NCBI GenBank assembly: GCA_950295325.1
Contig: OX485809.1
Coordinates: 17,424,001 to 17,488,000, forward strand
DNA length: 64,000 bases
DNA from: Polytrichum commune
Taxonomy: Eukaryota > Streptophyta > Polytrichopsida > Polytrichales > Polytrichaceae
Reading direction: 5' to 3'
Numbering within the stretch: position 1 is the first letter of the stretch; each line of letters starts with the position of its first letter. Both the position numbers and the translations under genes were made by a program. The notes beneath the pieces are model-generated. The model was given only the letters and a program-made list of their open reading frames with translations. It did not search any database and was not told the DNA's origin. This document shows positions 1,411-40,400 of the stretch, in pieces.

Positions 1411-1435
1411 TGTATTGAGTGACGGCTTCACCATA

Positions 1436-2740
1436 GACCAGCGTGGAGAACCTCAAATCCCACTACATAAATACTTCGATCCAGAAACATATGACATATG
1501 TCTCAAACACTTGGGTAATAACAAAGCCCTTGGCCCAGACAAAATTCTCAATTCAATCCTAAAAAATAGGTCACCACGATTTCACAAACTACTGTTTTTA
1601 TTCTTCAAACACTGTTACAAACAAAAACAAATCCCTGCATTATGAAAAACGAGCCTCACAGTTCTATTCTATAAGAAAGGTAACTCATCACAACTTATAA
1701 ACCATAGACCTATTGCTCTAGCCAATACCATATATAAACTCTACACAAATACTTTGACATCCATCCTCTCGGCTTATGGAGAAACTCACCAAATACTACA
1801 CGATAGTCAAGAAGGATTCAGAGCAGAAAGAGAAACATCCAGACAACTCCAAATACTTATTGTTGCATTAGAAGATGCAAGATTCACAAATTATGACATA
1901 TATATTCTATACATAGACTTCAAAAACATCTTTGGCTCCATTGACCACGCTAGATTCCTAGTCATAATGAAGGACCTTGGATACCCAAATGATGTCATAT
2001 ACCTAATTGAAAACATATACTCACAATCCACTACCACATTCATTGGAGAACACTTCGGTAAAACACAACCCATTCTCATTCAAAGAAAAACGATACAAGA
2101 AGACACCATAAGTCCATACTTATTCATCATATTCTTATAATCCCTCCTTAGATGGTTACAACAAGGAAATGATAGATACACATTTGGAACATCCAAAGTA
2201 AAAATCTCCTCAGTAGTATATGCGGATGACTTAGCAGCAATTGCCAACAGATTAAAATCACTTCAAATACAACTCAACAAACTCGACAAATTCTGTAAAT
2301 GGGTTCGCATGGATCTTGGAATCCCTAAATGCGCAATTACTGGATGCCCGAACAAATCCAAAGTGAGCCCCCTAGCATTCAAAAACTCAAATTCAAGCGA
2401 CCAATATAAACTACATAAACGAACCTATACCAGTTTTAAGTCAAAATGAATCATATACATATCTGGGAATAAACCTTGCCCCTTCACTAAAATGGAAAAC
2501 AGAAATACACACTACTACCACCAAAGTCATAAAACAATGCAAGGACCTTGCAGCTTGTCCAACCACTATGAAACAAAAAATTAATATGGCCGACACAGTT
2601 CTATGTTATACCATACTCCTTACCTGCCATAAAAAAACTTGACAAAAAGATTATTGCCCTCCACAAAATAATATGTGAACTACCAAAATGCACGTCAAAC
2701 ATAGCCACGTAACTCCCTCATGACCTATTTGGAATAGAAG
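1436..2740 (+). pseudogene. Reverse transcriptase domain of LINE copy 1 (broken)
   Basis: The frame starting at 1436 reads an RT entry motif (NNKALGPDKI, about 1527-1556), then a fingers motif with RPIALANTIYKLY, a palm motif with LYIDFKNIFGSIDH near 1908-1950, and the catalytic box as YADD at 2219-2230. All lie in one frame, but it is crossed by TGA at 1643-1645 and TAA at 2138-2140. Around 2400 the reading jumps to another frame, where YLGINLAPSLKWK continues the thumb. Catalytic aspartates are still present. With at least two stops and one frameshift no functional RT can be made from this copy. Confidence 0.88.
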
Positions 2741-2972
2741 GTTTTTCACTTAAAAACGCCTACGTACGATGCATAGGTGAGCAACTACAACATGCCCTTA
2801 ATGACACAGGTAGACTTGGACAAATTTACAACGGACTACTACAATTTATACTAGCAACATTTGGTGGCGCTGAAGAAATACCTCGTATCAAATACCACCA
2901 TTGTGTCTGATCACCTATAACTAGAAAAAAAAATTACTTAAAAAAAGAGCAGGAGTTCACCTAAAAAGCACA

Positions 2973-3679
2973 ATGGACAACTTCATACTTAACACCTCCC
3001 CACTTGAAAACGTCTGGATGAATGAAGCGCAAAACATTCACGGCCTAAATCCTAAAACATCACTTAAATTACTACAAAAGTTATTATTGTACAATATAAT
3101 TGAACTAGGGCAAATCACTTTACCCAATGGCCTTAATATGATGAGCCCATATGATTTTAAAAACTATCATTCTAACCCTACCAAACTAATTAAAAGTGCA
3201 TTAAATATTTCTCAACAACTATTTTGTCACCCCTCTTGCCCCCGCAATGCCAACAACCATGCCCGCACCATCACCCCCCAAGAACCCTAAAAGACAACTA
3301 CATCATAATAAATCACAACATTCCCCCCAGACAACCCGAGCCTCTAGTGCATCCCCCAAATCCACTTCACCCATACCAACCTTCCCCACCAAGAGACGTT
3401 CTTAAAAACCCTAGACAATTCCCTATCCACACAATCTTTTATCATAAACACCGACATTACACTGACTCCAATGGAATCACGAAAAACCACACATCATATC
3501 TATGCCAATGGATAATAAGAAATAATAATACCTATAACAAATGGCGAACCCAAAGAGATTTATTCCCTTGGTACGACTGCAACACCTATGTCCGTAACAC
3601 CGGGCTACTAACTCAGTACTACACCAAAAGACAACATAAACACTTCTTGAACCTAATAAACGCCCACTTTGCCACATAA
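2973..3679 (+). pseudogene. Linker region between RT and methyltransferase-like domain, LINE copy 1
   Basis: Two overlapping frames (2973-3290 and 3224-3679) cover the stretch between RT thumb and the next domain. The first is leucine/asparagine-rich. The second becomes proline-rich and then reads a Y/H/N-rich segment ending at TAA (3677-3679). It shares its frame with the 326-codon domain that follows, so the TAA and a TGA at 3686-3688 are probably later mutations inside one original polyprotein. I recognise no named domain here. Confidence 0.55.
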
Positions 3680-3724
3680 CAACAATGAGATACCACATAC
3701 GTCACCCCCGCAACAATTATCCCA

Positions 3725-4702
3725 TTGGCACATATCTCTATCAATGAATGCAACCCTGAAAATGATATAGAAACCAGCACCAATACCATCCAAGCACACT
3801 TTGATGTGGCCCACATATATGAAGACCATGGACGACACCTCACCACCATTCCCAAAACAAGACTACACTGGCTATGGAAACAATACCAACTCGCAAAAAA
3901 TACCCCACACGGACTAGAACCACCCACACAACCATTCGAAACTGAAATGGTATGGTTATACCAAAAATACAAATACCGTATTCCAAAAAATGACCCTCTA
4001 AAACTAGCCCAATATACAATACCAACCCCGATATTAAACTTTCTCACTACATCATTCAATATCAGTCACTCATATTTTTCATCTTCAGTCACATGTTCTA
4101 CACAACTTAATCAATTTTACTCTCCATTCTCACGAGATAAAATATTTGGATCCTTAGGGAAAGCCTTTGACCATAAATGGAAAGGAATAGGATATGCCCA
4201 CCCCAATAATGCAACAAACTTAGAACATGCTATACATTGGGCCCGTCTTGCCGCCAAAAAATACCCAAGCACCATCACAATACTCATCTCACTTGATACA
4301 AACTGGTATCAAAACTGCAACCCACATTCCGGCCCATTCCCAGACACACATATTATCGCCCACTTTATTGCAGATACTATCACATATGAAGAACCTACTA
4401 AACCACCAAAATTTAACATACCTAGGAAAGAACTCTCTACACTACGAATACTTTGCATACACCACCAAAATAACTACATAGGAACCCATGAACAACTAAA
4501 TCAATTCACCCATATTATAAATAATCTCTCAATACAACAACCATACACACAGATTGCCATGTATACCCCCCCGAATATCCATGTCAATCCCAACAAAAAG
4601 TGGTCCAAACTAACTTATCCCAATATCCCCACACTCAATGAAACACCTATGCCTCAACTATGTGACTACCAAACTAACTTACCATTAAAATTTCATCCGT
4701 AA
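3725..4702 (+). CDS. Retrotransposon domain of unknown function, possibly PCIF1-like methyltransferase fold (copy 1)
   Basis: A 326-codon uninterrupted frame inside an otherwise decayed element. The track start is a TTG, so it is best read as an internal part of the polyprotein. The core, about residues 130-235, reads FSRDKIFGSLGKAF, then a short gap, GYAHP, a helix with HWARLAAKKYP, and a strand TITILISLDTNWY. That order (FGS-x-G, hydrophobic strand, xHP where NPPF would sit, helix, strand plus P/D-x-W) resembles the PCIF1 family of cap-adenosine N6-methyltransferases. The catalytic NPPF is not conserved: both copies have AHP followed by N or H. The second copy keeps the same pattern at about 60% identity by eye. 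The function is inference. It could instead be an inactive or unrelated fold. Confidence 0.6.
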   Translation: MAHISINECNPENDIETSTNTIQAHFDVAHIYEDHGRHLTTIPKTRLHWLWKQYQLAKNTPHGLEPPTQPFETEMVWLYQKYKYRIPKNDPLKLAQYTIPTPILNFLTTSFNISHSYFSSSVTCSTQLNQFYSPFSRDKIFGSLGKAFDHKWKGIGYAHPNNATNLEHAIHWARLAAKKYPSTITILISLDTNWYQNCNPHSGPFPDTHIIAHFIADTITYEEPTKPPKFNIPRKELSTLRILCIHHQNNYIGTHEQLNQFTHIINNLSIQQPYTQIAMYTPPNIHVNPNKKWSKLTYPNIPTLNETPMPQLCDYQTNLPLKFHP

Positions 4703-4708
4703 TTTAGT

Positions 4709-5295
4709 TATTACACTGATGGGTCATTTACAAAACCCAAACTAATTTCCCTAGAGTATGGAGAAGAGAAACAACATGATATGGTATTTATAGCCCTAAA
4801 GGGCTTAGCATTGCCAAAAGACTACATGGCCACCAAAATATCCTACGGGCAGAAATGATTGCCATCCATAAAACACTACGAATTATCAATACCCAATATC
4901 CAAATGAACCCGCATACATATTCACCGATAGCCTAAATGTATTATATCTACTAAACACACAAATTAAACATCCCACACTACACAACAGTCACCCCGACCG
5001 AGTCACACTTGCCTCCATGGTACAATTGCTTCAAAACCGCTCCCAACCAATCACATTATACAAAGTTAGAGCACATGTCAACATAGACGGCAATGAACAA
5101 GCAAATAAACTAGCAAATAAACTAGCAAAAGAAGGACTGGACCTTACCCATAGAAGCGCCACACACCCATACGAACACGCCCATGCCAGACCTTACTACT
5201 ACCAAAAAGATGAATGGCCCTCCATTATAGACACACCAGACAAAGGCCCTGTTAGATTTCTAGAAAAACAAATAAAAATACGACAGAATAAATAA
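4709..5295 (+). pseudogene. RNase H domain of LINE copy 1 (frameshifted)
   Basis: The first catalytic motif, YYTDGSF, lies at 4709-4729 in one frame. From about 4780 the domain continues in the next frame through RAEM, FTDSLNVLYLL and NIDGNEQANKLAN, giving the four acidic positions D, E, D, D of cellular-type RNase H. A frameshift near 4770 separates the halves, and a tandem codon duplication (ANKL repeated) follows the last motif. In retrotransposons this domain removes the RNA strand during cDNA synthesis. The intact counterpart is at 31452-31964. Confidence 0.88.
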
Positions 5296-5339
5296 CTTAG
5301 AAACTATAGCCATACAAACCCCCAATATCTGTAAATGGA

Positions 5340-6145
5340 CAGGCAATGCAGACATTGACAAAGAACTTTCCAATGAATTATGGAGTAACCCTACTATTAC
5401 GGACAAGCAAAAATCATGCCTTATCAAATTTTGCACCGGAACCTACATGGGCCAAGCCAGAAAACAAACCTTCTTTGGTAGACAAAGATTCCCCACCATC
5501 ACCTGTCCTATCTGCAACTCATATGAACTTGATACATGGCTACATGTACTACTCACATGCAAACAACAACATATACACTCATTACACGTACAATGATATA
5601 CTGTTTACGTACAAAACAATATGGAAAATCAGAAAATTACTAATTTCTTCTGAAAATCCCGATGCTACACTTTCATGAACGTTGGTACGTTTAATGACAA
5701 CCCCCAAGAAAACACCGTCCCTAACTGGCTATTACCCTGTACATGTGGAACCCAAAGATGCCACTGTAACTCTCAATTTAGACCCGACATCCTTTGCGTT
5801 AAAGGGTTACCATATCAAAATGAACCCCCCACAAATATTGACCAAACTCTTACCATACAATTTATTGAATTCACATATTGCAATGACATATTTTCACCAG
5901 AAACACTAGAAGCTAAAGCTAACAAATACAAACCACCGATAAAAAACATTGCTGCTCTAGGCTGGAAAATTGATCCGCTCATTGTTATTACAGCAGGCGC
6001 TAGAGCCGCAACACACATTCCATCAATGAAAGTACTTGAAGACAAATTAAAATACCTATGCCATCCATCCGAACTACCTTCAAAAACATCAATACCATTG
6101 CTATACAATACGCCATGTCCAACCTCCTCCACAAAAGAAGACTAG
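5340..6145 (+). pseudogene. CCHC knuckle and restriction-like endonuclease of LINE copy 1
   Basis: A knuckle of the form C-x2-C-x9-H-x4-C starts with the Cys codon at 5504. The frame then shifts briefly (WKIRKLLISS is read in another frame) and returns at 5675 for a 156-residue segment. This holds a Cys/His cluster (CTCGTQRCHC), an RPDI motif, IEFTYCND about 28 residues later and a K-x-NKYKPP stretch. The order Cys cluster, PD, acidic strand, K-rich helix is that of the R2-type restriction-like endonuclease, which nicks target DNA for target-primed reverse transcription. The second acidic position is Glu, not the Asp usual in R2. Confidence 0.75.
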
Positions 6146-6460
6146 AAAATCACCAACCTTTACCTCAATTACAAGATCCCCCCTAACGGAACCAAAAGTT
6201 ATATATGAAACTTACCCTATATTAATTAACCCTTATTTGCATTCTTCTAGCTGTTATTGGTTTCTATCTGTTACTGGCCCCTATTTGTTAATGGTTACTT
6301 GTGACTATAGTGTCTACTCTCGAAAGGGGGAAGTAGTTCTTTACTTCTATTCCTATGTCCACAGGACATAGGTCTAGGGGTGGAACGAACAGACACTTCA
6401 TTCACGTCGGTCCCCTACCGGAGACCGAAGTTTCTTCTCTCTCTTCTCTCTGCATAAAAG
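6146..6460 (+). other. 3' UTR and pyrimidine tail of LINE copy 1
   Basis: Non-coding sequence shared in part with the 3' flank of the second copy. It ends in a TTC/CTCT-rich run at about 6432-6452 in place of a poly(A) tail. The exact end and target duplication are not resolved. Confidence 0.6.
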
Positions 6461-7438: not shown

Positions 7439-7940
7439 ATATCGTAGACATGCTACTGACCGTGCAACACCACTTACCGTGCATGTCACGATACTCCACC
7501 ATGCCACTTACCGTGTACTTTTAATCTCGGCCGTCAAATTATATCACATGCAATCTCAACCGTCCGATGTCTCTCAAACTCAATCATGACCGTGCCAATG
7601 ACCTAAAACGTCACTGTCAACTCACACTCACCATGGAGTCTCCTTCACTCAAATCACATAGCAAGGTGTAGATGTAGCAATAATTTGTAGCTCCTTTAGT
7701 GAAACCTAACATGCACGGTTAGTGAATGGCACATTGATCACACATTGATGCATATAGTTGTGAACTTGATTGTAGAAAGGTTACAAATTTTCAAATACAA
7801 TTGTCATTTCATTTTACCACAATACTCTCATCTCATTTACTAATTACAATTTTTTTTTAAATATTAAAAAAGGTTTAACCCACCTTGTGGAAAACCATTT
7901 GAAACCCAAATATGCACGGTCAGTAGCATGTCTACGATAT
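7439..7940. mobile_element. Inverted-repeat element with 28-bp perfect termini
   Basis: Bases 7439-7466 and 7913-7940 are perfect reverse complements over 28 bp, beginning atatcgtagacatgctactg on the left. The interior is rich in the word 'accgtgc' and its complement and has no coding frame. Size and structure fit a non-autonomous DNA transposon. I could not find a convincing target duplication, so the superfamily is unassigned. Confidence 0.65.
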
Positions 7941-30499: not shown

Positions 30500-31324
30500 T
30501 TATATATTGTGTTGAAGGTCGGTGATGGATTGTTTATTTTCTATCCTCCTTTTATGGATTAGTATTGAATGTGCATATTGTGTGGCTATTATGTTAATTT
30601 GTCTAAATGTGTTCCTGATTTGTGAAGTAGGAAGTTTAAGTTTTGTCTCTAGTTCTGCCATTGAGGGAATATATGTTGTGGCTCTGGCACCTGATGCTAG
30701 TACTATCAGCGGGGCTACGTTCCATCCTTTTTCTTTGATGTTGTTGATGAGCGGTTGATATTTGGTGATTTTTCTTTCTAGTGATTTTGTGGAGAACCTA
30801 TCGTTGCAGTACGTGAATTCTATGAATTGGACTGTAAGTTCCGGTGTAGGTGCGTCTAGTGGTGGGGATTTATATGGGTGTCCTAGTATACATAATATGT
30901 CGGGTTTGAGCCTAGCATTGCAGTGACATCTTTGGGTGCTACATGTGCATGGAAGTAACCATGATGGTACTGTGTTTTCTTGGGGGAGCTCATTATATGT
31001 ACTTGCATTCATAAGCGTGTAGTATCTTGTTCTTTTGTTTGAGATGAGAAGTTTGCGTATTTCCCATACGGCTTTGTTATGTCTTTTTGTTATTAGTGCG
31101 TGTATGTGTTGTTGTTGACATTTGAGGAGTACATGTAACCATGTGTCTGCTTCTTGTGAGTTGCATATGGGGCACGTATGTGAGGGGTATGCATTTCTTC
31201 CGAAGAAGAGTTGTTTTCTAGCATGTCCCATGTATTGTCCGGTTCTGAATTTTACTAGGCATGTTTTTTTGTCTATCTGTGATAATTGGGTTGTTCCAAA
31301 AATCGTTTGATAGTGTTTTGTCAA
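30500..31324 (-). CDS. CCHC knuckle and restriction-like endonuclease of LINE copy 2
   Basis: A 274-residue uninterrupted frame. Residues about 50-68 form C-x2-C-x9-H-x4-C (CPICNSQEADTWLHVLLKC). Then come KRHNKAVWEIRKLL, a Cys/His cluster CTCSTQRCHC, the KPDI motif near residue 138, VQFIEFTYCNDRF, and ERKITKYQPLI. This is the arrangement of the R2-type restriction-like endonuclease, with Glu at the second acidic site. It would cleave target DNA to prime reverse transcription. The domain itself has no break. The upstream junction to RNase H is crossed by a stop at 31452, so it is not part of an intact polyprotein. Confidence 0.8.
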   Translation of the reverse strand: MTKHYQTIFGTTQLSQIDKKTCLVKFRTGQYMGHARKQLFFGRNAYPSHTCPICNSQEADTWLHVLLKCQQQHIHALITKRHNKAVWEIRKLLISNKRTRYYTLMNASTYNELPQENTVPSWLLPCTCSTQRCHCNARLKPDILCILGHPYKSPPLDAPTPELTVQFIEFTYCNDRFSTKSLERKITKYQPLINNIKEKGWNVAPLIVLASGARATTYIPSMAELETKLKLPTSQIRNTFRQINIIATQYAHSILIHKRRIENKQSITDLQHNI

Positions 31325-31451: not shown

Positions 31452-31964
31452 TTACATTGAGTGCCACCAATCTTTCTGTAGGTAGTATGGCGTGGGGTGT
31501 GCATGTTCATATGTGGTTATGGCATCTCTATGTTCGAGTTCACATCCATTTTTGGCTAATTTGTCCGCTTGTTCGTTACCACTAATGTTTGTGTGAGCTT
31601 TGACTTTATGGAGTGTGGTGGTTTGTGTGCGGGATTGCAACATCTCAATTATAGATTCGAGTATCTTTTTGTCTGGGTGGCTATTATGTAGGGTTGGGTG
31701 TTTTGTTTGTGTGTTTAGTAGGTATAGCACGTTAAGACAATCTGTGAAGATGTGTGCCGGTTTGTTTTGATATGTAGTAGTGAGGAGGCGGAGGGTATGG
31801 TGTATAGCCATTAGTTCAGCTCTTAGTATATTTTGGAGTCCGGGTAGTCTTTCTGCAATTTGGAGGTTTTTAAAAGGCTTATATATGCCATATCCTGTTT
31901 TTTCTTGTTTCCAATGTCCTTGGGTTATTTCTTTGGGTGGGATGAATGATCCGTCTGTGTAATA
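31452..31964 (-). CDS. RNase H domain of LINE copy 2 (intact domain)
   Basis: An open frame from YYTDGSF (31964-31944) through LRAELMAIHH, FTDCLNVLYLL and NISGNEQADKLAKNG to a stop at 31452. All four acidic catalytic positions (D, E, D, D) of RNase HI are present. Residues downstream (HAHPTPYYLQKD) match copy 1. It is broken from the preceding domain by a frameshift near 32180 and from the endonuclease by the stop at its end. Confidence 0.85.
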   Translation of the reverse strand, partial: YYTDGSFIPPKEITQGHWKQEKTGYGIYKPFKNLQIAERLPGLQNILRAELMAIHHTLRLLTTTYQNKPAHIFTDCLNVLYLLNTQTKHPTLHNSHPDKKILESIIEMLQSRTQTTTLHKVKAHTNISGNEQADKLAKNGCELEHRDAITTYEHAHPTPYYLQKDWWHSM

Positions 31965-32124
31965 GCAGAACTGTGGTTGATATTTGAGGGGGAGGCATAT
32001 GTCTTGGTTTGTGATTATGGGGACATTAGTAACTTGGGTCGTAGGTGGAGGAGGCTATGTGAGTTGGGACCATTTCTTGCTACGGTTTACTAGGGTGTTT
32101 ATTGGTGTGGGTGGTGCCGTTGTG

Positions 32125-32887
32125 TTAAATATAGTGGGTATTGCCAATAAAGCCCATTTGGTGTGCATAATTTCTCGGGCCAAGTGATGTGGTTTTGTGG
32201 TGTATGCATAGTATGCGGATGTCATGGCTTTCTGTGCGGGGTTCAATTCGTAGTTCTGGTGGCATTGTGGGTTCATCGTATATAATGGTGTCCGCTTTAA
32301 AGTGTGTGATGACGTGTGAATCTGGAAAAGGGCCTACATGGGGTTGAAGGTTGTGGTACCAATTTGGGTCGGTTGTTATGAGTATTGTAATTGTATCTGG
32401 GTTATTTTGGGCTGCAAGTCTTGCCCAATGTAGGGCTTGTTGTGTGTCCTCTTCTGTGTGTGGGTGGGCATACCCGTTCCCTATCCATTTATGTTGGAAT
32501 GCAATTCCTATTGATCCGAATACTTTGTCTCGGGTAAATGGGGAGGAGAATTGTCTTAGCGTGGTAGGGCATGTTACTGGTGATGAAAAGTAGGAGTGGG
32601 TGATGTGGAAGGAGTTGATGATGTTTTCAATGATGGCATTTGGGAGGGTGTATTGTGCGAGTTTGAGGGGGTCATTTTTGGGCATTCTATATTTGTACCT
32701 TTGGTACAACCATGCCACTTTTTCAAATGTTTGTATGGGGGGTTCTAAATTATGTATTTTGGTTATTGCGTCTTGGTATTGTTCCCATAACCATTGTAGT
32801 CTTTGTTCCAGGATGGTAACTAGGTGGCGGCCATCGTTGTCGTAAATATGTGATGCGCCATGTTGGCTTTGAATGGTATGTTGAATG
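32125..32887 (-). CDS. PCIF1-like methyltransferase-fold candidate domain, LINE copy 2 (5'-truncated)
   Basis: Starts inside the domain at the truncation point, with an aspartate-rich HIYDNDGRHLVTI segment, and runs to a stop at 32125 that follows a frameshift near 32180. The core is FTRDKVFGSIGIAF, GNGYAHPH, HWARLAAQNNP, TITILITTDPNWYHN, GPFPDSHVITHF, then DEPTMPPELR and ILCIHHK. These blocks match copy 1 at 3725-4702. The tail past the frameshift (KWSQLT near 32055) also matches copy 1. Confidence 0.6.
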
Positions 32888-33070
32888 GCTTGGGCATGTG
32901 GTGTTTTAAGGTGGAATCAAGGTTGATGCAAAGAAGGTCCACCAAATTAAGGCAATGAAGCCCCTTGCCAATTTTGAAGAAGTTGATATGGGGCATGGCC
33001 ATTTACTAGAATAGGTTTATTGAGAATTTGTTGGATCATGGCCGGCTCACTAAGTGCAATAATACTAACG
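32888..33070 (+). pseudogene. Ty3/gypsy reverse transcriptase, right part
   Basis: Continues the motif interrupted at 30269: LGHVVF, GGIKVDAKKVHQIKAMKPLA, NFEEV, as expected after the gypsy LGH. It decays into stops after about 33000. Sequence 33071-33500 shows no further clear motif. Confidence 0.85.
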
Positions 33071-33529: not shown

Positions 33530-34081
33530 TTAACTGAGTAGCCAAGAGGGGGATAGGTGGGCGAGCCGTGATTGAAAGCCCATAGTAAGCTTGAGAGCAT
33601 ATAATTTTATGGGAAGTTCTTCGAATTCAGCCAATAAGATATGATAGGAATTTAGAGAACGCACTGTGACGTGAGACATCATTTGCATCTTCATTCCCTT
33701 CTCAAAGACTTTCCAATGAGAGGTTTTCAAGTTGCCTCCCCAACTTTTGGTGCCATACGTGAAAGTAGGAAGCACCAAAGCCTTAATCAGGCGAGATTTG
33801 AGTTCCCAACATGTGATTCCAACTACTGCTTCTTTCCTTATAGTTCCTTTCAAGGCTTTCATACCTACGATTCCGCACCTTTTCTTAGATGGCTCAAAGT
33901 AACCATGTGAACAAAATTCGATCCCAAGGTTTTTGTATTCATGAGTGATCTCAATTTGGTCCTTGTCTAGATTAAATGCCTCTTGGTTTAATTTCCTTTT
34001 GTTGCGACCAAATATCATGATTTTAGTTTCAGCTAGGGTGACTTCAAGGATAGATGTGCCTAATTCATATAGCTTGTTCAA
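33530..34081 (-). pseudogene. RT thumb region of the second LINE type
   Basis: A 183-residue frame reads LAETKIMIFGRNKRKL, YKNLGIEFCSHGYFEPSKKR, GMKALKGTIRKEAV, WELKSRLIKALVLPTFTYGT and KSWGGNLK. That is the region just after the YADD box in many LINE polymerases (KTEIMVFGR, YLG-x-F, LF-x-x-L-V-x-P-x-x-x-YG). The catalytic part upstream is missing. It is a different family from the R2-like LINE: no similarity in the corresponding segment of copy 1. Confidence 0.8.
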
Positions 34082-35049
34082 AAGTCATGTTAAACCCAAA
34101 AATGCATGAGATCTTCTAGATCGTGTAATAAAGTATTATTTTCCAAAGTTCCTTGAGAATTATCACAAAAGAGAAGTTGCAAGGCACCATCAAAAAATCA
34201 CATCCATATAGTTTCCAAATACAATTTTTTTTCTTCCTTTCCTTCCATTATGAGTGGAGAAAATAAAAATTGAAAATTCTTCATCATCACAAACCTCCCA
34301 ATTTTGTTGAAATGATTGGCTAATAAATACAAGAGCTAGAAATCAGTGGGATGTTGGAAGTAAAATATGATCTTGATCATAACCTAATTGTCAAAATGTT
34401 CTCGAAATGTCTCTTAAGACATGAGCTCTTGATATACAAGATAACTATTCATAAAAAGTTGTGATCAAGTTTTGGAGGCGATAAACAGTATCAATGCCAT
34501 GTCTCAAAACAGATCAAGATCCAATCAATTGAAATCGAAATCCTATTTTTGTGACCGTAGGTCATGGCGATTAAGGGCTGAAATTAAATAGAGAGAGCCA
34601 TTTGGTCTCGATCATCATAGAAGCTCCCGTGGATTCAAAAAAAGAGCACATTCAAAAACAAACTCAAGTTTATGATAATTTATTTGGCATAAGCAAGAGC
34701 CCCCCTGGAATTTTTTTCTAAAAGAAATTCACAAATCTAAAAACTTCTGGATGGTATACTATACAGCATCATGCTTACAAGCTATGGAAAATAAATAACA
34801 GGCACCCCACATTCAATGCAGATGCATAAACATAGGGACGGTGTTTAGAGTACAGTTAAATTGTAGAAGAATCTGCTGGCAATGGAGTTGATCGTCACTG
34901 CTTCTTGGTACAAAAAAGAAGGGCTCCAGACATGGAGTAATAAGCTGACTCATTGGTGACTCATGAATGACTCACGGACTGTTGGAAACCTAATCGCATG
35001 AAGTACAAGGGTGGGAGGAGAGAGGGGAAAGATTCAAGGCCTTGATTGA
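34082..35049. other. No gene recognised; 3' flank of paralogue B
   Basis: AT-rich sequence. The last few hundred bases probably contain the 3' UTR of the minus-strand NTF2-like gene. Confidence 0.4.
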
Positions 35050-37473: not shown

Positions 37474-40400
37474 TCAAACATAGTATGTCATGCCAACCTT
37501 CAACAACTTTGGTTGGGGAATACTCAGGTAAAGCGTATTCTTCCTGCAATTTCTTCGGAGGAAGCTGTATATGTAGTCGATCGCGATCTTCTTTATGAAA
37601 CAGGCATTCTTTTTGCAGTGGACATCAGTGTCACCGAGTAGGTATACAACCCCAGATTCCTTCGCTTTTTGGAGGAAGGATAGCTCATCGTCCGTGTATG
37701 CATCATCGTCACCTTCGGCTTTTGAATTCATATGGGGAGTCTCAGAGTTGTCCGTCTCTGTTGTGTCGGATAATTCACCTTTGCCAGTTGAAACATCACC
37801 GGAGCCAGAGGAAGTTAATGTCGCAGGAGTATTCTCGGCAGCTTCAGTGATTATGAATCTTCTCAAACTCGATAGGAGACACTCCTCAAAACTACGTTCT
37901 GCGTCCGAGTCCATGTGATCCGTGTATCCATAGCGAACTGCACACCTATACATGCGAAATCTGCGAGGGCCGATCCTCCTCATTAAAATTCGCTCATCTT
38001 CGGGTACCGTACTCACAGCAATATGCCGTATGCAGACGAAGACTAACGTGGAGTGGATGGCAGGTAAATTTGTGATGAAGTGAGCAAAAATCGCAGGAAC
38101 TCCTTGAGGGAGCTCTGTGTAGACAAGCCCTATGCCTGGAACTCGCGAGATTCCGAGATTATGGCCAAGCCCAAGCACCCAATCCATGGATAACTTGTGT
38201 GAAAGCTCAAACAAGGACTTCATACGTGTACCATAGTGCCACGTATACATAATAGTCATGAAGCAGGTTGCAATCGCGAGGGGAACCCAACCACCGTCCA
38301 CCACCTTCGAGAGAACTGACGAGAAGTAGGCACCTTCAATTACTCCGAAAACAAGAATGAAGCCTAGAGCAAGTGCAATATTGGTATGCCAGATCAACAC
38401 CATTATAAGTGTGAGCAGGCAGGTTGAGATGAAAAACACTCCCACCACCGCAATACCTATGGCAAGGCAACGAGAACATTAAATTCCAGATTGCATCTAC
38501 CAAGAAATATAAACTATGTCACCTCCCGCTGAGGTCCCCATATAACCAGTACGAAATATGAAAGGTATTGCTGGAATGACAAAAAAAAAAAGTTGAATTC
38601 GTATGTTCAAACGATGTAAAATCATCAGTGAGACTATTAGCTATTAAATCTTTTGGGTTCACTCTATGTAGCAATTCACAATTCAGGGAAGAAAGACACA
38701 CCGTAAGCATGTCCTATCTGAGTGGTGCTCCGAAACCCGGCGACGATGGATATACTTAAAATCATAATAGTCCAGTTAATCTCCGGGATATAGATCTGGC
38801 CGTGCACGCTCTTTGAAGTGTGAATAACAGTCACTCGAGGGAAACAACCAAGTGCCATTGCGTTTCTGATCATAGAATATGTGGCTGAAATCATAGCCTG
38901 GCTAGCGATGATTGCGGCCATTGTGGATACCGCAAACATTGGCCAGTAAATTGGCTCTGTCAAAACAAACAATGAGGCCACGTTAGTGATTTAGCATCAA
39001 AGAGATCCCTAAAGAGCAAACTACAGGCCGAGCTCCCAACTACACTTAAACAATGACAAGTGCAGCTTAAGCAGTATATATAGGACCTTACTTGGAATCG
39101 ATCTGTAGAAGGTGTAGTTGACATCATCAGGGGTTTGATTTTTTAGAAGAAATGCTGCTTGGCCAATGTAAACACACATCAACGAAGGAAACACCATGCA
39201 AGAGAAGGCAATCTGCAATCAAAATAACACGCGTTACTTAAATTCCCCAGACTATACTTGGCGTCAATAATTCACGAGACCTCAAATCTTATATCTGCTT
39301 CAGGTTTCAAAGAACCATAGAGTCATAGTAAGTACATCTTCTCGTGGTATATGACTAGCTGTACTGAAGTACGAATTGCACCTGAAGTGATCTCACGGTG
39401 AAATGGCCCAAATCCGCAAACATAGCCTCAGTTCCTGCAGAAATATACCGAAAATTCCCCACAATTGTCCACGTAAGGAACCCAGAACAAATCCAAGGTT
39501 TAAACAATGAAGTTGTCGAGCTCTGCATATTTCGTTTTTGAGGAAATTGCTTCCACAACACCATCAGTTTCTCAAAACATAGCCAAAAACCATAGAACTG
39601 GTTAATCACCATTGGCAAGAACTACAGTTCATGGTTCCTTGAAGATTCTACCTAGAATTAAGGCTGTGGTCGAATCTACAATAACTCGTTAGGTTCTATT
39701 AATAAAATAGCAAAATGCTAATCAGATATGCCACGTGCAAATGACATGCTTGTCATTTGCTAATTGATTGGATTGCTTATAGAACGTCACTTACCTGTGA
39801 TGCACAACACGATACCCCCAAGAGAGACCCAGGCTTCCTTCTTGTTTCTCGCAAAATACGAGTAAATGTAGTAGGGATTCAGGGCCTTAAACACAGTTGG
39901 ATCCCATTTGAAAATGTTGTACAGGCCTATGAAGCCGATGGAGAGAAACCACACCAACATCGCCGGTCCAAACATGAATGCAACCTGCATTAAGTTTAGC
40001 ATGCTGTCAGAATTGTTGTCAGATCAGGAACGACTTGGAGCAGCTAAAACATTCGCACAAAGTCAGACACAACTGGTCACACTTGTTTTAGTGAAAATTG
40101 AGTTCAGTGTTTGAAACTTCCAGGAATTGCAATTTGTTAGCGATAGAGGATTTTTTATCATATGGTGCTGTTCGAACTTCTAGAGCACCTAATCTCAACA
40201 CTTTATTCTCTTCAATGAATCACCTTCGACTGAAGGTTGCTTTGGTTGGCAAGTACTGGTCTTATATGCTACAGAGTAGCAGTCTAAAACAACAGAAATA
40301 ACTTATAGAATAGTAAATAGAAGTCTCCTTTCTTCCCAAAACATTCATCAGATTCTTCTCGAATTCAAGATTTCAAACTTTACTCTCTCAAGTGGAATAT

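Follow-up and report, generated by a model that had tools for sequence, protein, structure and literature searches.

We found that a 64,000-nucleotide stretch of Polytrichum commune contig OX485809.1, hereafter the window, contains two copies of a LINE family whose ORF2 protein includes a PCIF1-like methyltransferase-fold domain. The plus-strand copy extends from the upstream edge of the reverse transcriptase (RT) to the C-terminal domain (1421-6187 (+)) and is 73.7% identical to a long relative, L005, over 4818 columns (blastn). Using the ORF2 sequences of two long relatives, L005 and L004, as tblastn queries, we delimited this copy to 1421-6183 and the minus-strand copy to 32880-30524, both of them 5'-truncated and frame-shifted. 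In the plus copy the RT lies at 1682-2344 (+), divided between two frames (PF00078: one match of 1.7e-11 above the cut-off and another of 1.2e-4 that falls short of it). Downstream, an open frame of 337 residues (3689-4702 (+)) holds the PCIF1-like domain, the stretch modelled being 3770-4594 (+) (PF12237 7.6e-8, AlphaFold2, VIA-align), and is followed by an RNase H domain (4792-5124 (+); PF00075 4.8e-9), the C-terminal domain (5276-6183 (+); tblastn to L005 ORF2 residues 2091-2390) and a piece of the element's 3' untranslated region (6287-6442 (+); blastn to L005 7435-7590, 70%). Within the domain, hhalign sets SYFSSSVTC (4070-4096 (+)) opposite ECFASPLNC of PCIF1, FGSLG (4145-4159 (+)) opposite FGSRG, and GYAHP (4190-4204 (+)) at the position of (A)NPPF, with GYAHPNN paired to FEANPPF. 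In the second copy we find the PCIF1-like domain at 32128-32916 (-) (PF12237 1.3e-8; GYAHP at 32475-32461), RNase H at 31455-32054 (-) (PF00075 1.5e-16) and the C-terminal domain at 30524-31324 (-) (tblastn to L005 ORF2 residues 2117-2383).

The original prediction, made from the letters of the window, described a domain with FGS-x-G, GYAHP, HWARLAA and a strand motif in a fixed order, and both copies carry them in that order: FGSLGKAF, KGIGYAHPNN, HWARLAA and TITILISLDTNWY in 3689-4702 (+), and FGSIGIAF, GYAHPHTEE, HWARLAA and TITILITTDPNWY in the minus-strand frame. Its placement of the domain between RT and RNase H holds for the plus copy and fails for the minus copy, which is 5'-truncated at about 32.88 kb, immediately upstream of the PCIF1-like domain, and is adjoined by no RT of the same LINE family (tblastn with the two long ORF2 queries, E <= 1e-4). 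An open reading frame beside it, at 33530-34084 (-), has no Pfam match up to E 1 and by eye resembles the RT or thumb of an unrelated LINE. Apart from the LINE copies, the window contains an exon of a KUP/HAK-type potassium transporter (37474-38478 (-); PF22776 3.6e-26). The genome as a whole has the content expected of a green plant, with 16 matches to the plant-specific SBP domain and 58 to chlorophyll a/b-binding proteins; at least 14 genes for the latter, equal in Pfam score, stand in tandem outside the window at G000:C5:1751760-1846160.

Upon examining the LINE family, we retrieved four long copies and scanned two ORF2 stretches of 2390 and 2312 residues (L005 and L004, respectively), in which the order of domains is APE-type endonuclease, RT, PCIF1-like domain, RNase H and C-terminal domain. 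The APE-type endonuclease is over the cut-off in L004 (PF14529 9.6e-8, PF03372 1e-5) and below it for both families in L005 (1.6e-5 and 0.0024); PF12237 reaches 1.2e-10 in L005 and 2.2e-12 in L004, and the RT and RNase H of L005 score 4.6e-29 (PF00078) and 2.9e-12 (PF00075). The element had been called R2-like. This stands in so far as its RT has R2 proteins as the closest solved relatives (1.1e-30 to 1.6e-28), although two other sequences, which we take for R2, reach 2.6e-19 and 4.6e-18 and are about level with L1 (1.1e-17); it does not stand for the whole element, since a long copy bears an N-terminal APE-type endonuclease (PF14529). At the C-terminus of L004 and L005 (L005 6138-7169 (+), corresponding to 5276-6183 in the window) we observe by eye the motifs C-x2-C-x9-H-x4-C (a Cys/His knuckle), RHN and PD...E...KxxKY, which we take to be those of R2-type endonucleases. 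No Pfam match was obtained here, nor a PDB match for L005, and the assignment is thus at the level of motifs, which suggest a second, R2-type endonuclease and hence a dual-endonuclease plant LINE.

Upstream of ORF2, the pieces read contain open frames of 825 and 589 residues that have no Pfam family over the cut-off and are taken to be ORF1 from their position. Neither the two ORF2 pieces (2390 and 2312 residues, E <= 0.01) nor the two upstream pieces (E <= 1) showed a WW domain, which in PCIF1 binds the Pol II CTD. Before MPNIL at the ORF2 start there are 2A-like ribosome-skipping peptides, GDIETNPGP in L091 and GDIKPNPGP in L005 (approximately 120-155). Three copies, L005, L006 and L007, are 99.6% identical over about 7.5 kb (blastn), and their 3' ends (approximately 7520-7640) consist of a short (TATC)n repeat followed by mutually different 3' flanks, from which we infer recent movement. 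Furthermore, of 40 loci with the domain (L008-L047), 37 have the linker upstream as well as the beginning of RNase H; L009 and L013, two of the three that do not, were retrieved as incomplete pieces. The PCIF1-like domain is a regular part of the ORF2 protein in a plant LINE family that appears to have been mobile recently. A chromodomain was considered for the linker between the RT and the PCIF1-like domain (L005 4404-4646 (+)), where Y-L-x-x-W ... W ... L can be read by eye, but is not established: Pfam Chromo matches 4 of 11 members, the best at 0.053, and when the linker was compared by hhalign with chromodomains from this genome, P was 0.016-0.017 and the probability below 3%.

We observed that profile searches bear out the proposed likeness to a PCIF1-type methyltransferase. 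Pfam PF12237 (PCIF1_WW), the family proposed as a check, scores 32.6 bits at 3689-4702 (+) and 35.1 bits at 32916-32128 (-) against a cut-off of 31.1; despite its name, the model appears to span part of the methyltransferase domain, judging by the position of the match here. The genome (408 Mb) gave 697 PF12237 candidates, and the 150 that were scored exceed the cut-off, a lower bound on the number of matches; PF12237 is found at E <= 0.1 in 39 of 39 members, 37 of which had been picked through a PF12237 search. With a single sequence, the PDB match is weak (0.048); with a profile of 70 rows, the two best sequences are PCIF1 (3.8e-4 and 8.4e-3) and the next stands at 0.69. Additionally, hhalign to an 87-residue piece of zebrafish PCIF1 returns E 2.8e-8 and a probability of 95%. 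The alignment is shallow (Neff approximately 1.9), with every row from one genome.

When predicting the structure with AlphaFold2, without templates and from the 70-row alignment, the best of five models reached a pLDDT of 83.1 and a pTM of 0.82; the remaining four had a pLDDT of 53.7-62.3, and confidence in the fold thus rests on one model of five. An earlier model (A1, 39 rows, pLDDT 48), on which we do not rely, also had PCIF1 as its top Foldseek match (7.4e-3). For the best model, Foldseek against the PDB, a second proposed check, gives only six matches at E <= 0.001, all of them PCIF1 entries (6irw 2.4e-9). VIA-align similarly returns Z of 13.0-15.0 to six PCIF1 entries and 7.8 to the best other protein; on 6irw_B the Z is 15.0 with an rmsd of 4.7 over 231 residues, model positions 3-251 falling on human PCIF1 417-668. 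This model has a Rossmann-like methyltransferase fold. Two outcomes had been set beforehand as speaking against the prediction, a profile search without a methyltransferase match and a predicted structure without a Rossmann-like fold; neither occurred. We conclude that the domain, some 230-250 residues long, is homologous to the PCIF1/CAPAM methyltransferase domain and has the same predicted fold, both being results of computation.

Next to this likeness stands a changed catalytic motif. At the position of PCIF1 NPPF the LINE motif is HP[HN][NT]. The altered motif, noticed as AHPN or AHPH in both window copies, is genuine and close to fixation in the family. In alignment A2 (70 rows from 68 sources, with the motif covered in 68 rows) His is present in 68/68 rows and the first Pro in 67/68, the second Pro of NPPF in 2/68 and its Phe in 0/67 of the rows that cover each; the NPPF motif of the PCIF1 m6Am enzyme is absent from these rows. 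Fifteen of the 68 motif rows come from loci retrieved with a pattern that required His-Pro, and excluding them leaves His in 53/53 and Pro in 52/53. When the count is confined to copies that fill 200 or more of the 263 columns, with the duplicate loci L001, L002 and L003 dropped, both residues are found in 35/35. A genome-wide DNA pattern for KWxGxGYAHP matches 404 places and its reversed control 0, which puts the motif far beyond chance. When any residue is allowed at the His position the pattern matches 414 places (reversed control 0), and His is thus present in 404/414; for comparison, the Ala preceding it is kept in 404/424 places (reversed control 0). Asn at the His position occurs in 1 place, L089, a copy split over frames (reversed control 0). 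The invariance of xHP, which was also put forward for checking, is complete for His and one row short for Pro in the alignment, and nearly complete for His in the genome.

The segments around the motif are similarly conserved, with S132 in 68/68 and C136 in 67/68 rows of the SP..C segment, and F153, G154 and G157 each in 68/68 and S155 in 62/68 rows of the FGSxG segment. A base-composition bias behind the change from Asn to His was rejected by reasoning only, the sense strand being A/C-rich, which does not favour CAY over AAY. No host PCIF1 gene with NPPF was found among 20 of the 114 matches to the zebrafish piece (87 residues; best E 0.002), all 20 being the LINE domain with His, in a search that could miss a gene split by introns. 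No relatives were confirmed in viral contigs among 64 pattern matches.

We also investigated selection on the domain with pairwise dN/dS, using 23 stop-free copies for core and tail and 15-21 copies, by region, elsewhere; the pairs overlap in their sequences and are not independent. Over core residues 75-240 the median dN/dS is 0.13, 0.076 and 0.071 at dS of 0.1-0.3, 0.3-0.6 and 0.6-1.0, respectively, with 0.33 at dS up to 0.1 (14 pairs), 0.12 at dS 1.0-2.5 (74 pairs) and 69 pairs saturated. For the tail (260-325) the values in the same three middle bins are 0.26, 0.26 and 0.61, and for the start of RNase H, from 15 copies, they are 0.245 (3 pairs), 0.081 (4 pairs) and 0.047 (12 pairs). Upon partitioning the core into three segments, we find dN/dS of 0.05-0.16 at dS 0.1-1.0, and the motif stretch 123-175 (0.10-0.13) is no lower than the other segments. 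By conservation, this stretch, which includes SSP..C, FGSxG and GYAHP, comes third among 222 stretches of equal length, yet it is matched by residues 76-98 (entropy 0.72 against 0.74 and 0.83). L004 and L005 agree most in the RT (80% identity), then in the endonuclease (70%), the PCIF1-like core (65%) and the RNase H (64%), and least in the linker (46%) and the tail (45%). The PCIF1-like domain is under purifying selection, which for the domain taken whole is about as strong as for the adjoining RNase H and does not single out the pocket.

What the domain does has to be read from the motif and from what is reported of NPPF enzymes. In PCIF1, changes of the NPPF motif lower or abolish activity (PMC6318281, PMC10544176, PMC11550742): N553A and F556G lower it (PMC11550742), and APPA or SPPG in place of NPPF serve as inactive mutants (PMC10544176). 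In PsiM, another NPPF enzyme, the amine that receives the methyl group is held by the side chain of Asn together with the carbonyl of Pro, the first of the two, and the N183A mutant is inactive (PMC10978996). The original prediction left open whether the domain modifies a nucleic acid or binds without catalysis, and binding is favoured by the absence of two NPPF residues, the Asn and the Phe. We consider it probable, with some reserve, that the domain is a PCIF1-derived pseudo-methyltransferase, which has lost canonical N6-adenine catalysis and is kept as a predicted binding part of the ORF2 protein (ORF2p). With the change from N-P-P-F to H-P-[H/N]-[N/T], both the amine-holding Asn and the aromatic Phe are lost, and with them most likely N6-adenine methylation of the PCIF1 kind, while the first Pro and the FGSxG and SSP..C segments, which we take to line the cofactor pocket, are retained. 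The conserved pocket may then bind a nucleotide, an RNA end or a cofactor and, from its position between RT and RNase H, could help ORF2p to grip the template RNA or the RNA-DNA hybrid during target-primed reverse transcription. The replacement of the catalytic Asn by a conserved His points to a methyltransferase fold that the element took up and remodelled for a step in its copying. Several observations count against a binding pseudo-enzyme. A dead motif without constraint would drift, and the conserved His may therefore be functional; furthermore, selection does not single out the pocket. The higher dN/dS of very close pairs, the single confident AlphaFold2 model, the shallow alignment and the poorly kept cap-ribose Glu, described below, weigh on the same side.

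The first of these leads to an active enzyme, a SAM-dependent methyltransferase whose centre has been remodelled, in which His would take the place of Asn and the target would be another atom or substrate, such as element RNA, cDNA or protein. This agrees with the near-fixation of His in the rows and genomic places counted above, with the first Pro in 67/68 rows, with the FGSxG-type segment in which F, G and G are invariant, and with purifying selection on the domain. Against it stand the loss of the NPPF Phe in 67/67 rows and the retention of the second Pro in only 2/68, and we know of no methyltransferase with a motif of the HP[HN][NT] type. The reported effects of N553A and F556G on PCIF1 activity also count against it (PMC11550742), whereas retrotransposons with cytosine or Dam-like adenine methyltransferases do exist (PMC5890265). 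We regard such an active enzyme as unlikely, with a modest chance of being right, and its more specific form, a captured PCIF1-type enzyme with a new His-Pro catalytic form, whose targets in retrotransposition would be the element's RNA, its cDNA or a chromatin partner, as rather doubtful. If true, a His-Pro enzyme would be a new methyltransferase chemistry inside a retrotransposon polymerase.

Alternatively, the domain could bind the 5' cap or the first nucleotides of the element's mRNA, leading to cis preference or to the completion of full-length copies. The homology to PCIF1 is in keeping with this, and PCIF1 is described as preferring capped 5' ends in a review that also names Arg239, Arg269 and Glu563 in the recognition of the cap ribose (PMC11550742). 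Because human and zebrafish chains are offset by five residues, Glu563 would be in zebrafish numbering and lie two residues after the NPPF Phe. This Glu is not conserved in the LINE domain, where the two columns after the motif have Glu in 25/66 and 16/66 rows, the latter being the column opposite Glu563. Moreover, the helical domain that carries the two cap Arg in PCIF1 was not found in the upstream linker by a profile search of the PDB. Cap binding in the manner of PCIF1 is thus not supported and is less likely, and we consider the cap-binding reading as a whole quite improbable. A resemblance by chance or an unrelated fold, the latter an option in the original prediction, would fit the weak single-sequence match and the variation among the AlphaFold2 models, and is very unlikely given that Pfam, the PDB profile search, Foldseek, VIA-align and hhalign all single out PCIF1. 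Equally hard to credit is a functionless passenger carried in frame, for which nothing speaks beyond the lost catalytic residues, as against dN/dS of 0.05-0.16 in the core segments versus 0.26-0.61 in the adjoining tail (dS 0.1-1.0), and a core as similar between L004 and L005 as their RNase H and more so than linker and tail.

Among the top-ranked results of longer lists from the open-licence literature, we found no description of a PCIF1-type domain in a non-LTR element; an earlier description of such a LINE domain may exist. The family offers a natural test of what becomes of an m6A-type fold once NPPF has turned into a conserved His-Pro, and its nearly identical copies make the role of extra ORF2p domains testable. 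Additionally, with hundreds of copies in a plant genome, plant matches annotated as PCIF1_WW may be pieces of transposons and not cap methyltransferases.

When compared with known systems, the LINE domain shares with PCIF1 the fold of the methyltransferase domain (Z 15.0), PF12237, the FGSxG and SP..C segments and A-x-P at the catalytic loop, and differs in having HP[HN][NT] for NPPF, in that WW and helical domains were not found, and in lying inside a LINE polyprotein. The preferred reading, a pseudo-methyltransferase, has a precedent in METTL14, a methyltransferase fold that has lost its catalytic motif and serves RNA binding; METTL14 belongs to the MT-A70 subfamily and is a cellular protein. 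With R2 the family has in common the best solved relatives of its RT and, by eye, the C-terminal motifs. R2 itself is not known to possess an APE endonuclease, an RNase H or a PCIF1-like domain, whereas the LINE family bears an APE-type domain and so departs from the R2 criterion of a single restriction-like endonuclease without APE. The Dualen/RandI non-LTR retrotransposons, reportedly described by Kojima and Fujiwara in 2005, carry RNase H. The LINE family has an APE endonuclease, RT, RNase H and, by eye, R2-type PD-(D/E)XK-like C-terminal motifs, and is thus closest to Dualen/RandI rather than to R2, with the caveat that the C-terminal motifs were read by eye. The PCIF1-like insert between RT and RNase H may set it apart from Dualen/RandI. 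Elements with both endonuclease types form the Dualen/RandI group (PMC3636483).

Finally, methyltransferases are known from other retrotransposons. Cytosine DNMTs have been described in LINE, DIRS and Gypsy elements (SymbioLINE-Dnmt, KnitGypsy-Dnmt3) and Dam-like domains in DIRS, with purifying selection reported on the DNMT domains (PMC5890265). Those domains are cytosine DNMTs or Dam-like, whereas the LINE domain is of the PCIF1 type, lies in ORF2 and is without the canonical catalytic residues; what they have in common is the capture of a methyltransferase by a retrotransposon.
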